Shown: positions 25,086-29,550 of the stretch, piece by piece
How the letters are laid out: each line of letters opens with the position of its first letter
Position numbering within the stretch: the stretch's first letter is position 1
IMG/VR virus record: IMGVR_UViG_3300020195_000126
Location: 1-29,550 of that record
Direction: 5' to 3' (one strand)
DNA: 29,550 bases
Source of the DNA: a virus
Position numbers and translations under genes: made by a program
Notes under the pieces: generated by a model
Databases searched by the model: none
The model's input: only the letters and a program-made list of their open reading frames with translations
What the model was told of the DNA's origin: nothing

Positions 25086-25839
25086 TCAGCGCTTCTGCTG
25101 GCACCCGTGTCTTCTGCCCGATGGCAACATCAAACTCTTCGCGGAATAAGAGGCCAGGTATCACGGCGCCTGCTTTGTGCGCTGCGACCGCTGCCTTCTC
25201 ATTGATGGTGATTATCAAGAACTCTTTCGGCACGAGGTTGATGTCGTCGACATCGCAGATCACCTTCCGCCGTGTATTCTTGATCCGCTGCTGATCGATG
25301 TCCCAGCGCGCCTGCTCCTGACTCGCTTTGAGCTGCGCGGCTTCTATGCGCTGGCGCTCTGCGAGCTCGTCCACCGCTGACGGTTGATCGCTTCCGAAAA
25401 GATCCGCGGCCTCCACTGCATCCATGGGTTCCATCGCCTGTTCAGCGGCGAGCTTAGTGCGCTCATCCTCTTGCCGGCGACAGAGTTCCGCGGCCTCAGC
25501 CCGGCGCTGGACGTCAAGCCGCTGCTGTTCCGCGCGACGGATCATCTCCTGTTCAGTCGCGAAGCGATTCAGTTCTCGTTTGATGTGGGCTTCAGCGTCA
25601 TCGAGCGGCGCGACAATAAACTTCACATATTCATTGATGCGCTTAACCTCGTCATTTAGCGGCCCTACTAACTCTTTGCGTTTGGCATCAACCATGTTCC
25701 ATAAAGACTTCAATCGCTTCGCAGTCTCCACTGCGTCGCTGCTTGATTTGAAATCTGTTACGACGAGAGTCTTCACTGGCGAAACAAACTGCGCAATCTC
25801 CGCCTTTAGTGGCTCAAATTTAGATAGCTCTGTGCTCAT
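25075..25839 (-). CDS. Coiled-coil protein partnered with the annealing protein
   Basis: 254 residues. A long charged coiled coil runs from about 40 to 190 ([40 protein letters not shown]). The C-terminal domain [20 protein letters not shown] through [20 protein letters not shown] is of a kind often coded next to RecT/Bet genes in phages. Its ATG overlaps the Bet gene stop (ATGA). A role in recombination or exonuclease handling is inferred from that pairing; no nuclease motif is seen. Confidence 0.65.
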
Positions 25840-26729
25840 GACTTCACTCCTCTTGTTCGCTTCTGATGTTCTATAACTAGCTGGTCCCGAAGTATTTCCA
25901 TCTCATCCATCGTCAGCATCTTTTTGTCTTTTCTGAATTCTTCGTGGCACCACTGACCCAGATCTTCATTCGTGATGTTCATGAGCTTCGCGGTCTTCAT
26001 GATGTCGATGGCCAGCGCGACGCGGGGATCAGACTCTTTTGACGCTGGCTTAATGACCACCGTCGCGGCGAGGCTCGGCTTCTGCGGTATTAGGTTCGGC
26101 GCGGACTTCGCCGCGGGGCCGGGCTCACCGCGTTCCGCCTGATCCATCTCATCGCTCGTGTAGAGTCCTGATAGCTCATGCGGGAAGGCCCGGCGCAGAG
26201 CCAGAGACTCCGCGCACTTTCCGATCATGAGTTCGGGCATGCGCTCCCAGAGGCCCATAAGATTTCCATCCTGGAATCGCTGCGCGTAGCCATCGAATCT
26301 AGCCACTGCCCATAGCGGCTCTTTGAACCCAGCGTGGAGAACGCCGACCTTCGCCGCGCTCGGCGGTTCACGGTCAAGCCAAGCGTCTTTCCATGTGCCA
26401 TCACCGCCGCACCAGAACGGCCCGAGCTGTCCAGCATAATTCCCTGTTCGTTCGGCGATCAGGCGGAATCCGTCGATCGAGGTCTGCGTCTGGTGGACGT
26501 CTCGACCGGCCTTCTTATCGTATCGCGGCACCGAGTAGATCTGGCGATTGAATGGGTCGAGCTTAGTGCGCTGGCACTGCCATAAAAACATTTTCAATTC
26601 GTCGTCGGTAGCGCCCTTGCATATCTGGCGTTTGATAATGTCGACCTGCTCAGTGCTGAATTGAATTTCTGACGTCGATGACGCTATTGTCGGCGCGCTG
26701 GCTACTGCTGTTTCGTTCGGGTTCGACAT
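25836..26729 (-). CDS. bet: RecT/Redbeta-type single-strand annealing protein (Bet)
   Basis: 297 residues. The N-terminal 180 residues match the Bet/RecT family: [55 protein letters not shown] and [20 protein letters not shown]. The family binds single-stranded DNA and anneals complementary strands during recombination and replication. The C-terminal 100 residues are variable, as usual. No lambda-type exonuclease gene lies beside it in this window, so the end-resecting partner may be elsewhere or come from the host. Confidence 0.88.
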
Positions 26730-27060: not shown

Positions 27061-27441
27061 ATGCGGCGAGGACTCATTGACTACAGGAATGTGAAGCGCG
27101 TTGAATTAGATGGCCGCTCTTTTCAGAGCAAGGGCGAGGCGCAGGGATATCTCTGGTTGAAGGCTGACGAGCAGGCCGGCAACATCTCCAACATCAGATG
27201 CCAGACGCAGGTCGCGCTGCTCGACGGGCCGCAGAATATGCGCGTCATTTACAGGCCCGACTTCGTAGTGTTCGACCACAAGCTGCAATGCGACGTGTGG
27301 ATAGAAATCAAAGGCTTCGAGACAGACGTATGGAAGATCAAACTCAAGCTCTGGCGGCACTTCGGCCCAGGGCGGCTCAGGATCTATAAAGTCGGGTGGG
27401 GTAAACTCGTGTTTGACGAGGAAGTCATTCCTAAGATTTAA
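27061..27441 (+). CDS. DUF1064-type nuclease (PD-(D/E)XK)
   Basis: 126 residues from ATG 27061. DGRSFQSKGEAQGYL at the front (E26), YRPDFVV (D67) and WIEIKGFET (E82, K84) form the E...D...ExK active site of PD-(D/E)XK enzymes, and together match the DUF1064 family of phage nucleases, some of which act as Holliday-junction or flap endonucleases. It lies opposite the bet cluster and may process recombination intermediates. The order of catalytic residues is visible; the exact substrate is not. Confidence 0.75.
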   Translation: MRRGLIDYRNVKRVELDGRSFQSKGEAQGYLWLKADEQAGNISNIRCQTQVALLDGPQNMRVIYRPDFVVFDHKLQCDVWIEIKGFETDVWKIKLKLWRHFGPGRLRIYKVGWGKLVFDEEVIPKI

Positions 27442-27934
27442 TCAGAGCATGAATCTTTTCATGCTCTTACTTGTCGTCGTTCCTTCTTTATTCGCCATCT
27501 CCTGCGGTAAGCAGCTACACAGCGGGCCTGACGAGCTGACTGCCTATGTTGAGGAATTCCAGGCTGCCGGCGCGTCGGTTAATCGACCCATTCAGGTTGG
27601 GCAGATCAAACTTAAGCTCGTCAAGTCTCTCGATCAATATGGGGCTGCTGTTGCAGGGTACTGCGACCGCACGAAGACTCCGCCAGAGGTGCTGATATTA
27701 AAAGCTCGCTGGGCTGGCTTCGGCGAAGTCGAGCGCGAAATGCTGATATTCCACGAGCTCGGGCACTGCGTGCTGGGCCGCGAACATCTCGGACTAGTTA
27801 ACCCGGTGAACCGATTGCCAGTAAGCCTGATGTTCCCGGGCATGATTCCGGCCGCGATTTACTCTGCCGCACGCGGTCATTACATCTACGAGCTGTTCTG
27901 GAATAGACCGGCGCTCATGACGCTTGTTCAGTGA
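27413..27934 (+). CDS. Secreted metalloprotease-like lipoprotein
   Basis: TTG 27413 gives 173 residues with a signal sequence (KSFLRF, then MNLFMLLLVVVPSLF) ending in a lipobox-like AISC (Cys 31). ATG 27449 is an alternative without the basic n-region. The mature part has HELGHCVLGREH at 114-125: a HExxH zinc site with a third histidine seven residues after it, and SLMFPG at 138-143 as a possible Met-turn. That resembles metzincin proteases with one extra residue in the motif. It would sit in the envelope or be exported. The gene overlaps the nuclease gene by 29 nt and ends next to the convergent 27936 stop. Confidence 0.6.
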   Translation: MTRKSFLRFNQSMNLFMLLLVVVPSLFAISCGKQLHSGPDELTAYVEEFQAAGASVNRPIQVGQIKLKLVKSLDQYGAAVAGYCDRTKTPPEVLILKARWAGFGEVEREMLIFHELGHCVLGREHLGLVNPVNRLPVSLMFPGMIPAAIYSAARGHYIYELFWNRPALMTLVQ

Positions 27935-27935
27935 T

Positions 27936-28103
27936 CTAGCGCAGCTGCTTCAGCGCCGCTCTCACTGCGCCCTCGGTCACGCCGAGATGGTCGGCTATCT
28001 CTCGGAATGTCATCCCATTCTTACGCAGCTTCGCTGCTTTCGCGTAGTCGAATTTTCTCGGCGCGCCTTGGGTCGGCTGGTAGCCGCATTTGGGGCATTT
28101 CAC
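27936..28103 (-). CDS. Zinc-knuckle plus helix-turn-helix protein
   Basis: Using GTG 28103 the product is 55 residues. CPKCG at the start is one half of a zinc ribbon. KLRKNGMTFREIADHLGVTE with GAVRAALKQLR is a clear helix-turn-helix of the resolvase/sigma-4 type. It would bind DNA, probably as a small regulator. The GTG overlaps the TGA of the Gly-X micro-gene upstream (GTGA), and GGGGGG lies seven nt before it. An ATG at 28118 would add five residues (MGGHT). Confidence 0.6.
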   Translation of the reverse strand: MKCPKCGYQPTQGAPRKFDYAKAAKLRKNGMTFREIADHLGVTEGAVRAALKQLR

Positions 28104-28118
28104 TGTATGACCCCCCAT
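28100..28118 (-). promoter_or_regulatory. Coupling element 3 (RBS plus GTGA)
   Basis: ATGGGGGGTCATACAGTGA on the minus strand: a G-run as Shine-Dalgarno, a 7-nt spacer and GTG overlapping TGA. It is the stop of Gly-X copy 3 and the start of the helix-turn-helix gene. It differs from element 2 at two bases. Confidence 0.5.
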
Positions 28119-28168
28119 CCATAGCCGCCGCCGCTGCCTTCGCCGCTTCCGTCAATTACCCCAGTCAT
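28100..28168 (-). CDS. Gly-X cassette copy 3, 22 residues
   Basis: ATG 28168 reads MTGVIDGSGEGSGGGYGWGV and IQ before TGA 28102-28100. It has only the two ends of the longer Gly-X genes: 26 nt at 28131-28156 are identical to 28855-28880 (start of copy 2), and the final 19 nt match the ends of copies 1 and 2. It begins in an ATGA overlap with the 142-residue gene and ends in a GTGA overlap with the helix-turn-helix gene. Confidence 0.5.
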   Translation of the reverse strand: MTGVIDGSGEGSGGGYGWGVIQ

Positions 28169-28593
28169 GACTCTGCCAGCTCATCCCGGAACCGTTCACC
28201 CCACGAACGACTCGGCGAATCCTTGAGTCTGTCGAGAACTTCAGCGACTGACATCTTAGATGTGAGGGGGATGCGTTGCTGTTTAGCCCACAATGTCGCC
28301 CCTGCACGACAAGCTCCCGTGATGATGCTGAAATCTGACAGCGTCACGTTGCCAGATTCCCTGACGCGCGCCAGAGCCTCAGCCCTTCCAGATCCTGGAT
28401 TCTGTTTTTCCTTGGCCGCCGTGACTGCGTCGCGGAATGATTCGCCGTGAGCGCAATACGGCGTATTTTCAAGTGTGACGAACCACGTTTCGCCGTCTTG
28501 TGTTTTAATTACCTCGCACGCATGACCCTCACGCATAAAAACTCGTGGCGGACCGTCTGCTTCAAGCTCTAAGCCGTCCCTGAATATTATCAC
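28165..28593 (-). CDS. Hypothetical protein between two Gly-X genes
   Basis: GTG 28593 (overlapping the TGA of Gly-X copy 2, with GGGAG eight nt before it) gives 142 residues; ATG 28608 would add five. An N-terminal beta-rich part (GHACEVIKTQDGETWFVTLE, YCAHGESFRDAVTAAKEK) is followed by a helical part (VTLSDFSIITGACRAGATLW, SVAEVLDRLKD). The second half resembles a small domain common in phage proteins of unknown function. No enzyme motif. The stop overlaps the next Gly-X start (ATGA). Confidence 0.6.
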   Translation of the reverse strand: MIIFRDGLELEADGPPRVFMREGHACEVIKTQDGETWFVTLENTPYCAHGESFRDAVTAAKEKQNPGSGRAEALARVRESGNVTLSDFSIITGACRAGATLWAKQQRIPLTSKMSVAEVLDRLKDSPSRSWGERFRDELAES

Positions 28594-28608
28594 TGTATGA
28601 TCTCCCAT
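28590..28608 (-). promoter_or_regulatory. Coupling element 2 (RBS plus GTGA)
   Basis: ATGGGAGATCATACAGTGA on the minus strand. GGGAG is the probable Shine-Dalgarno, eight nt before the GTG that overlaps the TGA of Gly-X copy 2. The same bases encode the peptide end WEIIQ of the Gly-X protein. Confidence 0.55.
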
Positions 28609-28883
28609 CCTTCGCCGCTGCCTTCGCCGCTGCCGCTGAAGCTGCCGCTGCCGTAGCCGTAGCCGCTGCCGATGCCGCTGCCGCTGCCGTTGCCGTAGCC
28701 GTAGCCGCTGCCGCTTCCGCTTCCGCCGCCGCCGCCGCTGCCGAATCCGCCGCCGCTGCCGTTGCCGTAGCCGTAGCCGCTGCCGCTTCCGCTTCCGCTG
28801 CCATAGCCTTCGCCGTTGCCGTCGCCGTAGCCGTTGCCGTCGCCGTAGCCATGGCCGCTGCCTTCGCCGCTTCCGTCAATCAT
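28590..28883 (-). CDS. Gly-X dipeptide-repeat protein, copy 2 (97 residues)
   Basis: ATG 28883 opens 97 codons in which nearly every second residue is Gly, the other being Ser, Tyr, Asn, Asp, Glu, Phe, Ile or His (MIDGSGEGSGHGYGDGNGYG onward), ending GWEIIQ. The DNA is a variable hexamer repeat of GGC-NNN type. Because of this all minus-strand frames are open, including an Ala/Thr frame. The Gly frame is preferred because its ATG overlaps the previous TGA (ATGA) and its TGA overlaps the next GTG. It would be a disordered, flexible or silk-like chain. Function unknown. Confidence 0.6.
   Translation of the reverse strand: MIDGSGEGSGHGYGDGNGYGDGNGEGYGSGSGSGSGYGYGNGSGGGFGSGGGGGSGSGSGYGYGNGSGSGIGSGYGYGSGSFSGSGEGSGEGWEIIQ
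28681..28797. repeat. 45-bp direct duplication inside Gly-X copy 2
   Basis: Bases 28681-28725 and 28753-28797 are identical, with starts 72 nt apart (24 codons). The shared unit is built from CCGCTG, CCGTTG, CCGTAG and CCGCTT hexamers. It shows that the gene has grown by in-frame duplication and should vary in length between relatives. Confidence 0.8.
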
Positions 28884-29197
28884 TTTGACTCGTAAGCGAG
28901 CACGCTCTTAGCAGCAGCAGCAGTCATCTCAGCAATTTCCAATCCTTGGCGATTGACAATAACCACGCGCGCGAGCATAGCGCCGACTTGATGCTCTTTG
29001 CCTGCAATGAGCCCGTTCGCCGCCACGTCGCTGACCGAGCCGGACTTGTCGCGGGTGTATACGCGCCAGAGCCTACGCGCTGACGTTAGCACGACGGTCT
29101 GTGTCGCCGCATCGAATGACTCCACGGTGCCGGCGTGTACTCCTGCAATAGATGCGCGGACAATTACAGACGCTCCAATGATGCTTCTCTTTTTCAT
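28880..29197 (-). CDS. DUF6948-like phage protein
   Basis: ATG 29197, with AAGGA seven nt upstream, gives 105 residues. VIVRASIAGVHAGTVESFDA, then VVLTSARRLWRVYTRD, is a small beta-rich domain with the ARRLW motif that I associate with the DUF6948 family of phage proteins; ARVVIVNRQGLEIAEMTAAA closes it. Function is unknown for the family. The frame stays open upstream to GTG 29386, giving a possible 63-residue extension through repeat copy B. The stop overlaps the Gly-X copy 2 start (ATGA). Confidence 0.6.
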   Translation of the reverse strand: MKKRSIIGASVIVRASIAGVHAGTVESFDAATQTVVLTSARRLWRVYTRDKSGSVSDVAANGLIAGKEHQVGAMLARVVIVNRQGLEIAEMTAAAAKSVLAYESK

Positions 29198-29250
29198 TTC
29201 ATTTTCCTTTTTTTGTTGTTGGACCAGGTACAAAGACGCTGACGAGTTCG

Positions 29251-29323
29251 CGTCACGCTCTGCTGCGCAACCGCTCCGACTGCGGTTCGGCTTATCTGTA
29301 GCCATTACACAAGCCTGTGTGGT
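29251..29323. repeat. 73-bp direct repeat, copy B
   Basis: Second copy of the repeat at 129-201, same orientation, with the same hairpin core. Here it lies between the end of Gly-X copy 1 and the DUF6948-like gene, in a 185-nt stretch (29198-29382) with no certain gene. On the minus strand it again encodes MATDKPNRSRSGCAAERD, in frame with the gene downstream. Confidence 0.8.
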
Positions 29324-29382
29324 TCCTGTCCAGGCGCGAGAAGCGTCCCACCCAGGTCGCGATGAATCGCTCCGCACGCCTG

Positions 29383-29401
29383 TCACTCTATGATCTCCCA
29401 T
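29383..29401 (-). promoter_or_regulatory. Coupling element 1 (RBS plus GTGA)
   Basis: ATGGGAGATCATAGAGTGA on the minus strand: one base different from element 2. GGGAG stands eight nt before GTG 29386, which overlaps the Gly-X copy 1 stop. Unlike elements 2 and 3, the gene that should follow is unclear, because repeat copy B has been placed between it and the DUF6948-like gene. Confidence 0.45.
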
Positions 29402-29550
29402 CCATAGCCGCTGCCATAGCCTTCGCCGCTGAAGCTTCCGCTGCCGTTGCCGTCGCCGAATCCGCTTCCGATGCCGCTGCCGCCGCCGTAGCTGCTTCTG
29501 CTTCCGCTGCCGCTTCCGCTGCCGCTGCCGCCGCCGCTGCCGCATCCGCC
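29383..29550 (-). CDS. Gly-X dipeptide-repeat protein, copy 1 (partial, start outside window)
   Basis: The frame enters from the right edge and gives 55 residues (GGCGSGGGSGSGSGSGSRSS, a short non-Gly patch, then GGGSGIGSGFGDGNGSGSFS and a GYGWEIIE end). Composition, hexamer-based DNA and the C-terminus match copies 2 and 3. The beginning is missing, so length and the upstream overlap cannot be checked. The opposite strand and other frames are also open because of the repeat structure. Confidence 0.5.
   Translation of the reverse strand, partial: GGCGSGGGSGSGSGSGSRSSYGGGSGIGSGFGDGNGSGSFSGEGYGSGYGWEIIE

Follow-up and report, generated by a model that had tools for sequence, protein, structure and literature searches.

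Gly-X repeat frames as a phage gene family and neighbour of DUF6948

Introduction

The nearest described counterpart of the locus treated here lies in Iodobacter phage phiPLPE, where positions 46,046-46,255 were listed as the repeat (KMGCCG)35 and the speculation that such repeats are attachment sites was repeated (PMC3391216). Our subject is the IMG/VR virus record IMGVR_UViG_3300020195_000126 (29,550 bases; "the window" denotes this whole stretch), at one end of which three minus-strand frames encode strings of glycine alternating with a second residue (Gly-X), interspersed with a gene of Pfam family DUF6948 (PF22253) and a gene for a domain that we call C1. The phiPLPE repeat is the same object, a Gly-X frame at 46,045-46,281 overlapping DUF6948, although it was described as a GC-rich DNA repeat, with the gene unrecognised, and grouped with different repeats of two vibriophages. 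A literature search covering DUF6948, strings of Gly-X and glycine repeats in phages turned up no other paper, and none naming DUF6948; the Pfam family, of which the window's gene is a member, is an entry without function whose link to Gly-X is seemingly unrecorded. The original prediction, made from the letters of the window, knew of no described phage system with this layout, and only the phiPLPE paper touches on one; the Gly-X/DUF6948 module has apparently never been described before. Sequence comparison across phages indicates that Gly-X is a fast-evolving phage gene family and a near-constant neighbour of DUF6948.

Several known systems share parts of this arrangement. A C-terminal domain homologous to C1 occurs in phage proteins with other repeats (the CRP5 'ribonuclease inhibitor', Dulem virus 31 XCD03121.1 and the BFVD 'Lamprin' model A0A8S5SZK3), and in CRP5 and locus L208 such proteins are encoded beside ERF/RecT genes; their repeats, however, are leucine-rich, ASSGD or others, whereas here they are Gly-X and mostly form separate, chained genes. 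Sm/LSm proteins with low-complexity tails, and Rof, resemble the predicted fold of DUF6948 and would also share the combination of small barrel and low-complexity chain, but DUF6948 has no LSM sequence match and its Gly-X chain is a separate gene and poor in Arg. Tick GRP (PMC11794139) and the Escherichia coli SSB linker (PMC12143593) are likewise Gly-rich and probably disordered, with spaced aromatics, but they use Arg-aromatic contacts or GGxxGGG motifs, while Gly-X alternates strictly and carries mostly S, Y, D or N.

Association of Gly-X with DUF6948

When viral contigs are chosen by DUF6948 alone, Gly-X is always there. Queries with the window protein (13 loci) and with an alignment (32 loci) together gave 32 distinct viral contigs, and all 32 have a Gly-X frame on the DUF6948 strand, including L075, L086, L087 and L099, where the automatic scan overlooked it and inspection found it. 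The material is mostly metagenomic contigs and the gene calls are simple. Because the peptide pattern has only about 600 matches in 2.9 million contigs, the association goes beyond chance. The window DNA, its DUF6948 protein and its helix-turn-helix protein have no match in INPHARED, so divergent DUF6948 queries were needed for annotated phages; with these, Gly-X adjoins DUF6948 in 15 of 15 distinct phages, namely Iodobacter phiPLPE, Vibrio IKEMa6-1, seven Pectobacterium phages, Dickeya phage Setonix, Chlorobiaceae phage CV-1-33, two gut phages and two spring-water phages. In very distant phages the two genes are still adjacent on the same strand, with mostly overlapping frames, and the pair is also found in a Neisseria gonorrhoeae chromosomal prophage and a Monoglobus element. 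One chromosome-sized N. gonorrhoeae record filed as a plasmid (L248, NZ_CP119142.1 531930-535181) has three DUF6948 matches, and the one place inspected has a Gly-X gene. The DUF6948 profile cut-off is exceeded in 19 of 26 records, the window included, and in 10 of 44 further records.

Starting from Gly-X leads back to the same partner. The DNA pattern MIDG(GX)5 gave 17 stretches; among those contigs that have true Gly-X frames, DUF6948 is missing only in L006 and L020, and in both the contig stops at the array, or within it, on the very side that DUF6948 would occupy. An unbiased pattern, (GGNNNN)12, gave at least 120 stretches, which include Gly-Val, Gly-Ala and similar repeats as well as S/Y/D/N Gly-X genes. 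Among the matches listed, PF22253 is present in 11 of 15 S/Y/D/N Gly-X contigs (a class picked by eye before the DUF6948 test) and in none of 29 controls with other repeats. A scripted rule, applied to the 120 stretches listed with their fetched flanks, gave a weaker but still clear contrast (16/31 against 3/89; Fisher p 6e-9). A divergent DUF6948-like gene overlaps or abuts Gly-X in seven of the 15 apparent misses (hhalign 93.9%, E 1.6e-7), and in L142 DUF6948 sits at the opposite contig end. Other routes yielded little: tblastn with Gly-X protein against viral contigs gave 599 pattern stretches, none confirmed, probably through low-complexity filtering; a frame scan of genome contigs with the MIDG pattern gave chance matches only, mostly in Micromonospora; and the search that had been proposed for frames with the window's own tails matched just two contigs, one of them apparently by chance. 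Contig 3300048502_000152 (L008 and L010) has DUF6948 at both ends, with differing last residues (QKWEN, STLR), which may represent terminal redundancy or a rearranged array.

Protein-level constraint on the Gly-X frames

Perfect Gly-X runs lie on the DUF6948 strand in 101 cases and on the opposite strand in 4. Within the arrays, diversity is.03,.02 and.19 at the three positions of the Gly codon (G1-G3) and.51,.53 and.21 at those of the X codon (X1-X3). The X residues are mainly S, Y, D and N across phages despite differing codons: Gly is written mainly as GGC, GGT, GGG or GGA depending on the phage, and Ser as AGY in some phages and TCN in most. Eight related Pectobacterium/Dickeya phages, whose DUF6948 DNA is 88-100% identical, hold seven Gly-X alleles of 53-89 codons; all differences are multiples of 6 nucleotides and the start MSKLIKPE(K/R)YG is kept. 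The same residue set encoded by different codons, together with length change in in-frame steps of 6 nucleotides, supports coding. Folding of the Gly-X message as RNA revealed no unusual structure (z -0.45), and in GenBank several Gly-X frames are annotated as hypothetical proteins (such as XDF89605.1 and QOE32032.1). Taken jointly, the claims that Gly-X frames are real genes and that they form a module with DUF6948 are very probably correct. The original prediction had left open a choice between a selfish low-complexity element and a coding unit whose peptide has its own role; hexamer diversity, codon sets and in-frame alleles point to constraint on the peptide and favour the latter.

Operon layout and chained units

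In the window, all genes of the locus are on the minus strand, and the three Gly-X frames lie where they had been predicted. Gly-X gene 1 (29383..29550) is partial, has at least 55 codons, is open at the contig end, and terminates in GYGWEIIE, with a GTGA overlap (29386-29383) into the DUF6948 frame. The GTG at 29386 opens a 168-residue form of that frame, but the likelier start is the ATG at 29197, behind AAAAAAAGGAAAATGAA, which gives a DUF6948 gene at 28883..29197. Gly-X gene 2 (28590..28883; 97 codons, MIDGSGEGSG...GEGWEIIQ) begins in an ATGA overlap with DUF6948 (28883-28880) and ends in a GTGA overlap (28593-28590) with the C1 gene (28165..28593; 142 residues, GTG start). Gly-X gene 3 (28100..28168; 22 codons, MTGVIDGSGEGSGGGYGWGVIQ) begins in a second ATGA overlap (28168-28165) and ends in a GTGA overlap (28103-28100) with a helix-turn-helix gene (27936..28103; 55 residues, GTG start). 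The shared ends and composition that had been noticed are evident in 27 identical bases common to genes 2 and 3, ATTGACGGAAGCGGCGAAGGCAGCGGC, and in the tails GWEIIE, GWEIIQ and GWGVIQ of genes 1, 2 and 3. The tail of gene 2, GGATGGGAGATCATACAGTGA (28590..28610), joins the last codons, a possible ribosome-binding site (GGGAG) and the C1 start codon.

Downstream of its first Gly-X gene the window reads DUF6948-GX-C1-GX. Elsewhere in its clade the order is DUF6948-C1-GX(n), as in L054 (up to nine tandem units), L057, L063, L067 and L070; Gly-X units stand upstream of DUF6948 in L053, L069, L083 and the window, and L060, one of the loci in the window's clade, has an in-frame fusion of Gly-X and C1. 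With units placed on either side of DUF6948 and C1 as well as between them, sequence comparison indicates that in the window's clade Gly-X has multiplied into chains, as the prediction of a copied unit implied. The genes between the Gly-X frames, which had been taken as unrelated, are not random neighbours; both DUF6948 and the 142-residue C1 family recur with Gly-X elsewhere. What survives of the proposed portable cassette is thus a duplicated, translationally coupled coding unit within one locus, not one that roams among arbitrary genes.

Most units open with M-x-(I/V)-(D/N)-G, and their last residues are GW-x-EV-x-S, G-V-L-K/E/Q, G-(V/I)-C-x or G-V-M-K/Q. The end of one unit overlaps the next start in 38 cases. 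Overlapping stop and start, with a ribosome-binding site upstream, is the arrangement of translationally coupled phage operon genes, and a Shine-Dalgarno-like match of at least 5 nucleotides is present in 27 of the 38, compared with 24 of 285 random positions. The tail codons often double as the ribosome-binding site, Glu-Val being written GAG GTG and Gly-Val GGA GTT, and in the EV- and GVL-tailed types the 3′ end unites the last codons, the Shine-Dalgarno sequence (GAGGTG, GGAG) and the next ATGA or GTGA start. Since the tail carries both the ribosome-binding site and the next start, an added unit leaves the operon coupled, and gene copies can be added while translational coupling is kept. 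In L066 the C1 gene ends GWSEVIS, identical to a Gly-X unit end of the same contig, and the unit junction is therefore common to C1 and Gly-X. In L054 the junction GGATGGAATGAGGTGCTGTCATGATTGATGG recurs at successive unit boundaries and could be a ready substrate for unequal recombination.

Contigs stop at or inside Gly-X arrays in the window (29550), L003/L027/L028, L012, L018, L020, L006, L074 and L101, and both ends of 3300014169_000013 do so; the arrays break assemblies, so true array length is underestimated. Putative HNH-type endonuclease genes, recognised by eye, lie between DUF6948 and C1 in L074 (4297-4725) and L086 (4317-4787). A further repeat protein at the locus is the NINAxNITAxDI-type gene of L186 (3024-3533), near a DUF6948-like/Gly-X pair.

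Partner domains

The window's DUF6948 protein scores 46 bits against PF22253, for which the Pfam cut-off is 27, and its AlphaFold2 (AF2) model, with a predicted local distance difference test score of 93, is a small beta-barrel. Sm/LSm barrels fill the first 50 rows of both Foldseek and VIA, the exceptions being NatC-complex entries in Foldseek (6yga, 6ygb, 6ygc); Foldseek E-values are 4e-3 to 2e-2, VIA Z-scores 7.1-8.1 and root-mean-square deviations mostly 2-3 Å across 62-78 residues. By sequence, Pfam LSM gave no match at E <= 1 and no Sm motif was found, and profile A5 gave weak matches only against PDB sequences, among them CG6311 at E 0.58. The model thus suggests a likeness to Sm/LSm proteins in fold, not membership of that family.

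C1 is the second partner domain, encoded as a separate gene or fused behind Gly-X, and elsewhere behind other repeats. Its family was found in 12 of 22 mapped regions and bears the motifs AHG(x)T...EA and (I/L)TGAC..G; alignment of the window's 142-residue family with the repeat-linked domains gives hhalign values of 98.4-98.8% (best E 9e-17). In Riemerella phage CRP5, C1 follows leucine-rich repeats and lies near an ERF gene; in Dulem virus 31 the preceding repeats are ASSGD. In L208 it comes after LTSIPEGFNPTVGG repeats, with a DUF6948-like gene, Gly-X, and genes resembling RecT and an exonuclease alongside, and in L060, L183, L241, L243 and L247 after Gly-X itself. The viral 'Lamprin' model is among three significant structural matches (Foldseek E 1e-5). 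In Pfam, NCBIfam and PDB there was no significant match for C1, and against PDB no clear fold emerged, the weak rows with a beta-beta-beta-alpha order like that of double-stranded RNA-binding domains having Z < 5. A HicB-like reading of the AHGxT..EA motif is backed by no profile.

Interpretation

We consider the best overall explanation, at a probability of roughly 60%, to be that Gly-X is a gene family with DUF6948 as its partner and that its peptide has a self-associating role. The peptide would be a disordered chain that forms condensates or fibres, like glycine/tyrosine-rich low-complexity domains; with Arg largely missing, aromatic-aromatic or beta-type contacts would do the work. Together with C1 and the Sm-like DUF6948 protein it would act within the early block of recombination/replication genes, the assembly perhaps concentrating nucleic acid or sequestering a host factor. 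Recombination at identical unit junctions, together with slippage within the hexamer arrays, would lengthen the chains, and the variability may be tolerated or favoured if only composition, length range and ends matter. The scaffold role, taken by itself, is tentative. Equally speculative is the wider picture of a widespread undescribed system in which an Sm-like DUF6948, a hypervariable, expandable Gly-X and C1 build a nucleic-acid-associated assembly in the infected cell, with Gly-X units that hold the start signals of the following gene and can therefore multiply freely in an operon.

Several observations weigh against this explanation. The X residues are acidic or polar with little Arg, unlike RGG-type condensate formers. 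The Sm likeness is one of predicted fold only, and Z-scores near 8 can reflect a common arrangement. The low diversity at G1 and G2 is partly built in, the arrays having been selected by alternating Gly, and in an 18-nucleotide scan the window's own tails (genes 2 and 3) match the anti-Shine-Dalgarno sequence weakly. Frame-breaking indels occur in Gly-X of L054 (1814-2351) and L068 (9178-10520), both from metagenome 3300048502, and may be assembly error, decay or phase variation. A clear exception to the association is L136, with five tandem Gly-X genes and no DUF6948. These genes (810-1985; MNIKIS(K/R)G...) lie on a 119-kb phage contig, after a 177-residue gene.

The strongest competitor, which we think has a real though minor chance of being right, holds that Gly-X is the exchangeable repeat domain of the repeat-C1 protein, split here into separate genes, and serves as an extended spacer or binding surface with no condensate, perhaps as silk-like or polyglycine-type strands whose fast variation would follow a varying host or rival target. 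That C1 follows four kinds of repeat in different phages fits this view, as does the hypervariability of Gly-X between otherwise similar phages. Most of the distant phages, however, show a solitary Gly-X after DUF6948 and no neighbouring C1 gene, and L208 carries Gly-X as a gene of its own in addition to an LTS-repeat C1. It is unlikely that DUF6948 is instead a Rof-like Rho inhibitor or another Sm-like regulator of host RNA, with Gly-X as an accessory tail acting in trans: the predicted fold agrees, Rof being an Sm-like inhibitor of Rho, but Rof is restricted to Pseudomonadota (PMC11018626), whereas the locus is also found in Chlorobiaceae and Monoglobus elements. Among the DUF6948 structural matches listed, Rof was looked for and did not turn up, but such a list is no ground for excluding it. 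Somewhat less likely still is a translational-coupling spacer whose RNA or frame passes ribosomes between genes and whose peptide is a by-product; the stop/start overlaps and embedded ribosome-binding sites would be explained, but coupling does not need 50-100 codons of S/Y/D/N-Gly or a composition kept across codon sets, and the non-overlapping units of L053 and L062 retain IDG/ING starts and GVC/GIC ends. An element acting at the DNA level, for instance an attachment site as guessed for the phiPLPE repeat that coincides with a Gly-X frame, is very improbable, since the DNA is not conserved even among close relatives while the peptide type is, and the frame overlaps DUF6948. Microsatellites or selfish low-complexity DNA, for which hexamer arrays, tandem copies and rapid length change might speak, can be set aside with similar firmness: repeats without overlaps, at random places and in either orientation were looked for, and what was found is one locus, one strand, a kept frame, conserved starts and ends, the same residues from different codons and a DUF6948 partner conserved in very distant phages.

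On the preferred explanation, low-complexity DNA that is easy to dismiss, that BLAST filters drop and that tends to break assemblies, becomes a well-delimited gene family whose partner is fixed, spanning phages of Proteobacteria, Chlorobi, Clostridia and many uncultured hosts. DUF6948 gains a predicted Sm-like fold and a partner, and phage-made low-complexity peptides become directly testable.

Neighbouring genes in the window

The window encodes terminase, major head, tape-measure, tail and lysis-type genes, along with RecT and an exonuclease-like gene. The RecT single-strand annealing protein (25836..26729, minus strand; PHROG 2780, E 1.4e-69; Pfam RecT) belongs to a recombination module adjoining the Gly-X locus. 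The helix-turn-helix gene that overlaps the end of Gly-X gene 3 matches PHROG 7061 (E 1.3e-7) and HTH_23 (26.1 bits, cut-off 24.6) and has relatives in L003 and L004. On the plus strand, 27413-27934 encodes a putative lipoprotein with a signal ending SLFAISCG and a HELGH metallopeptidase-like motif; L075, L090 and L091 have similar small SCG lipoproteins, which may hint at the host group.

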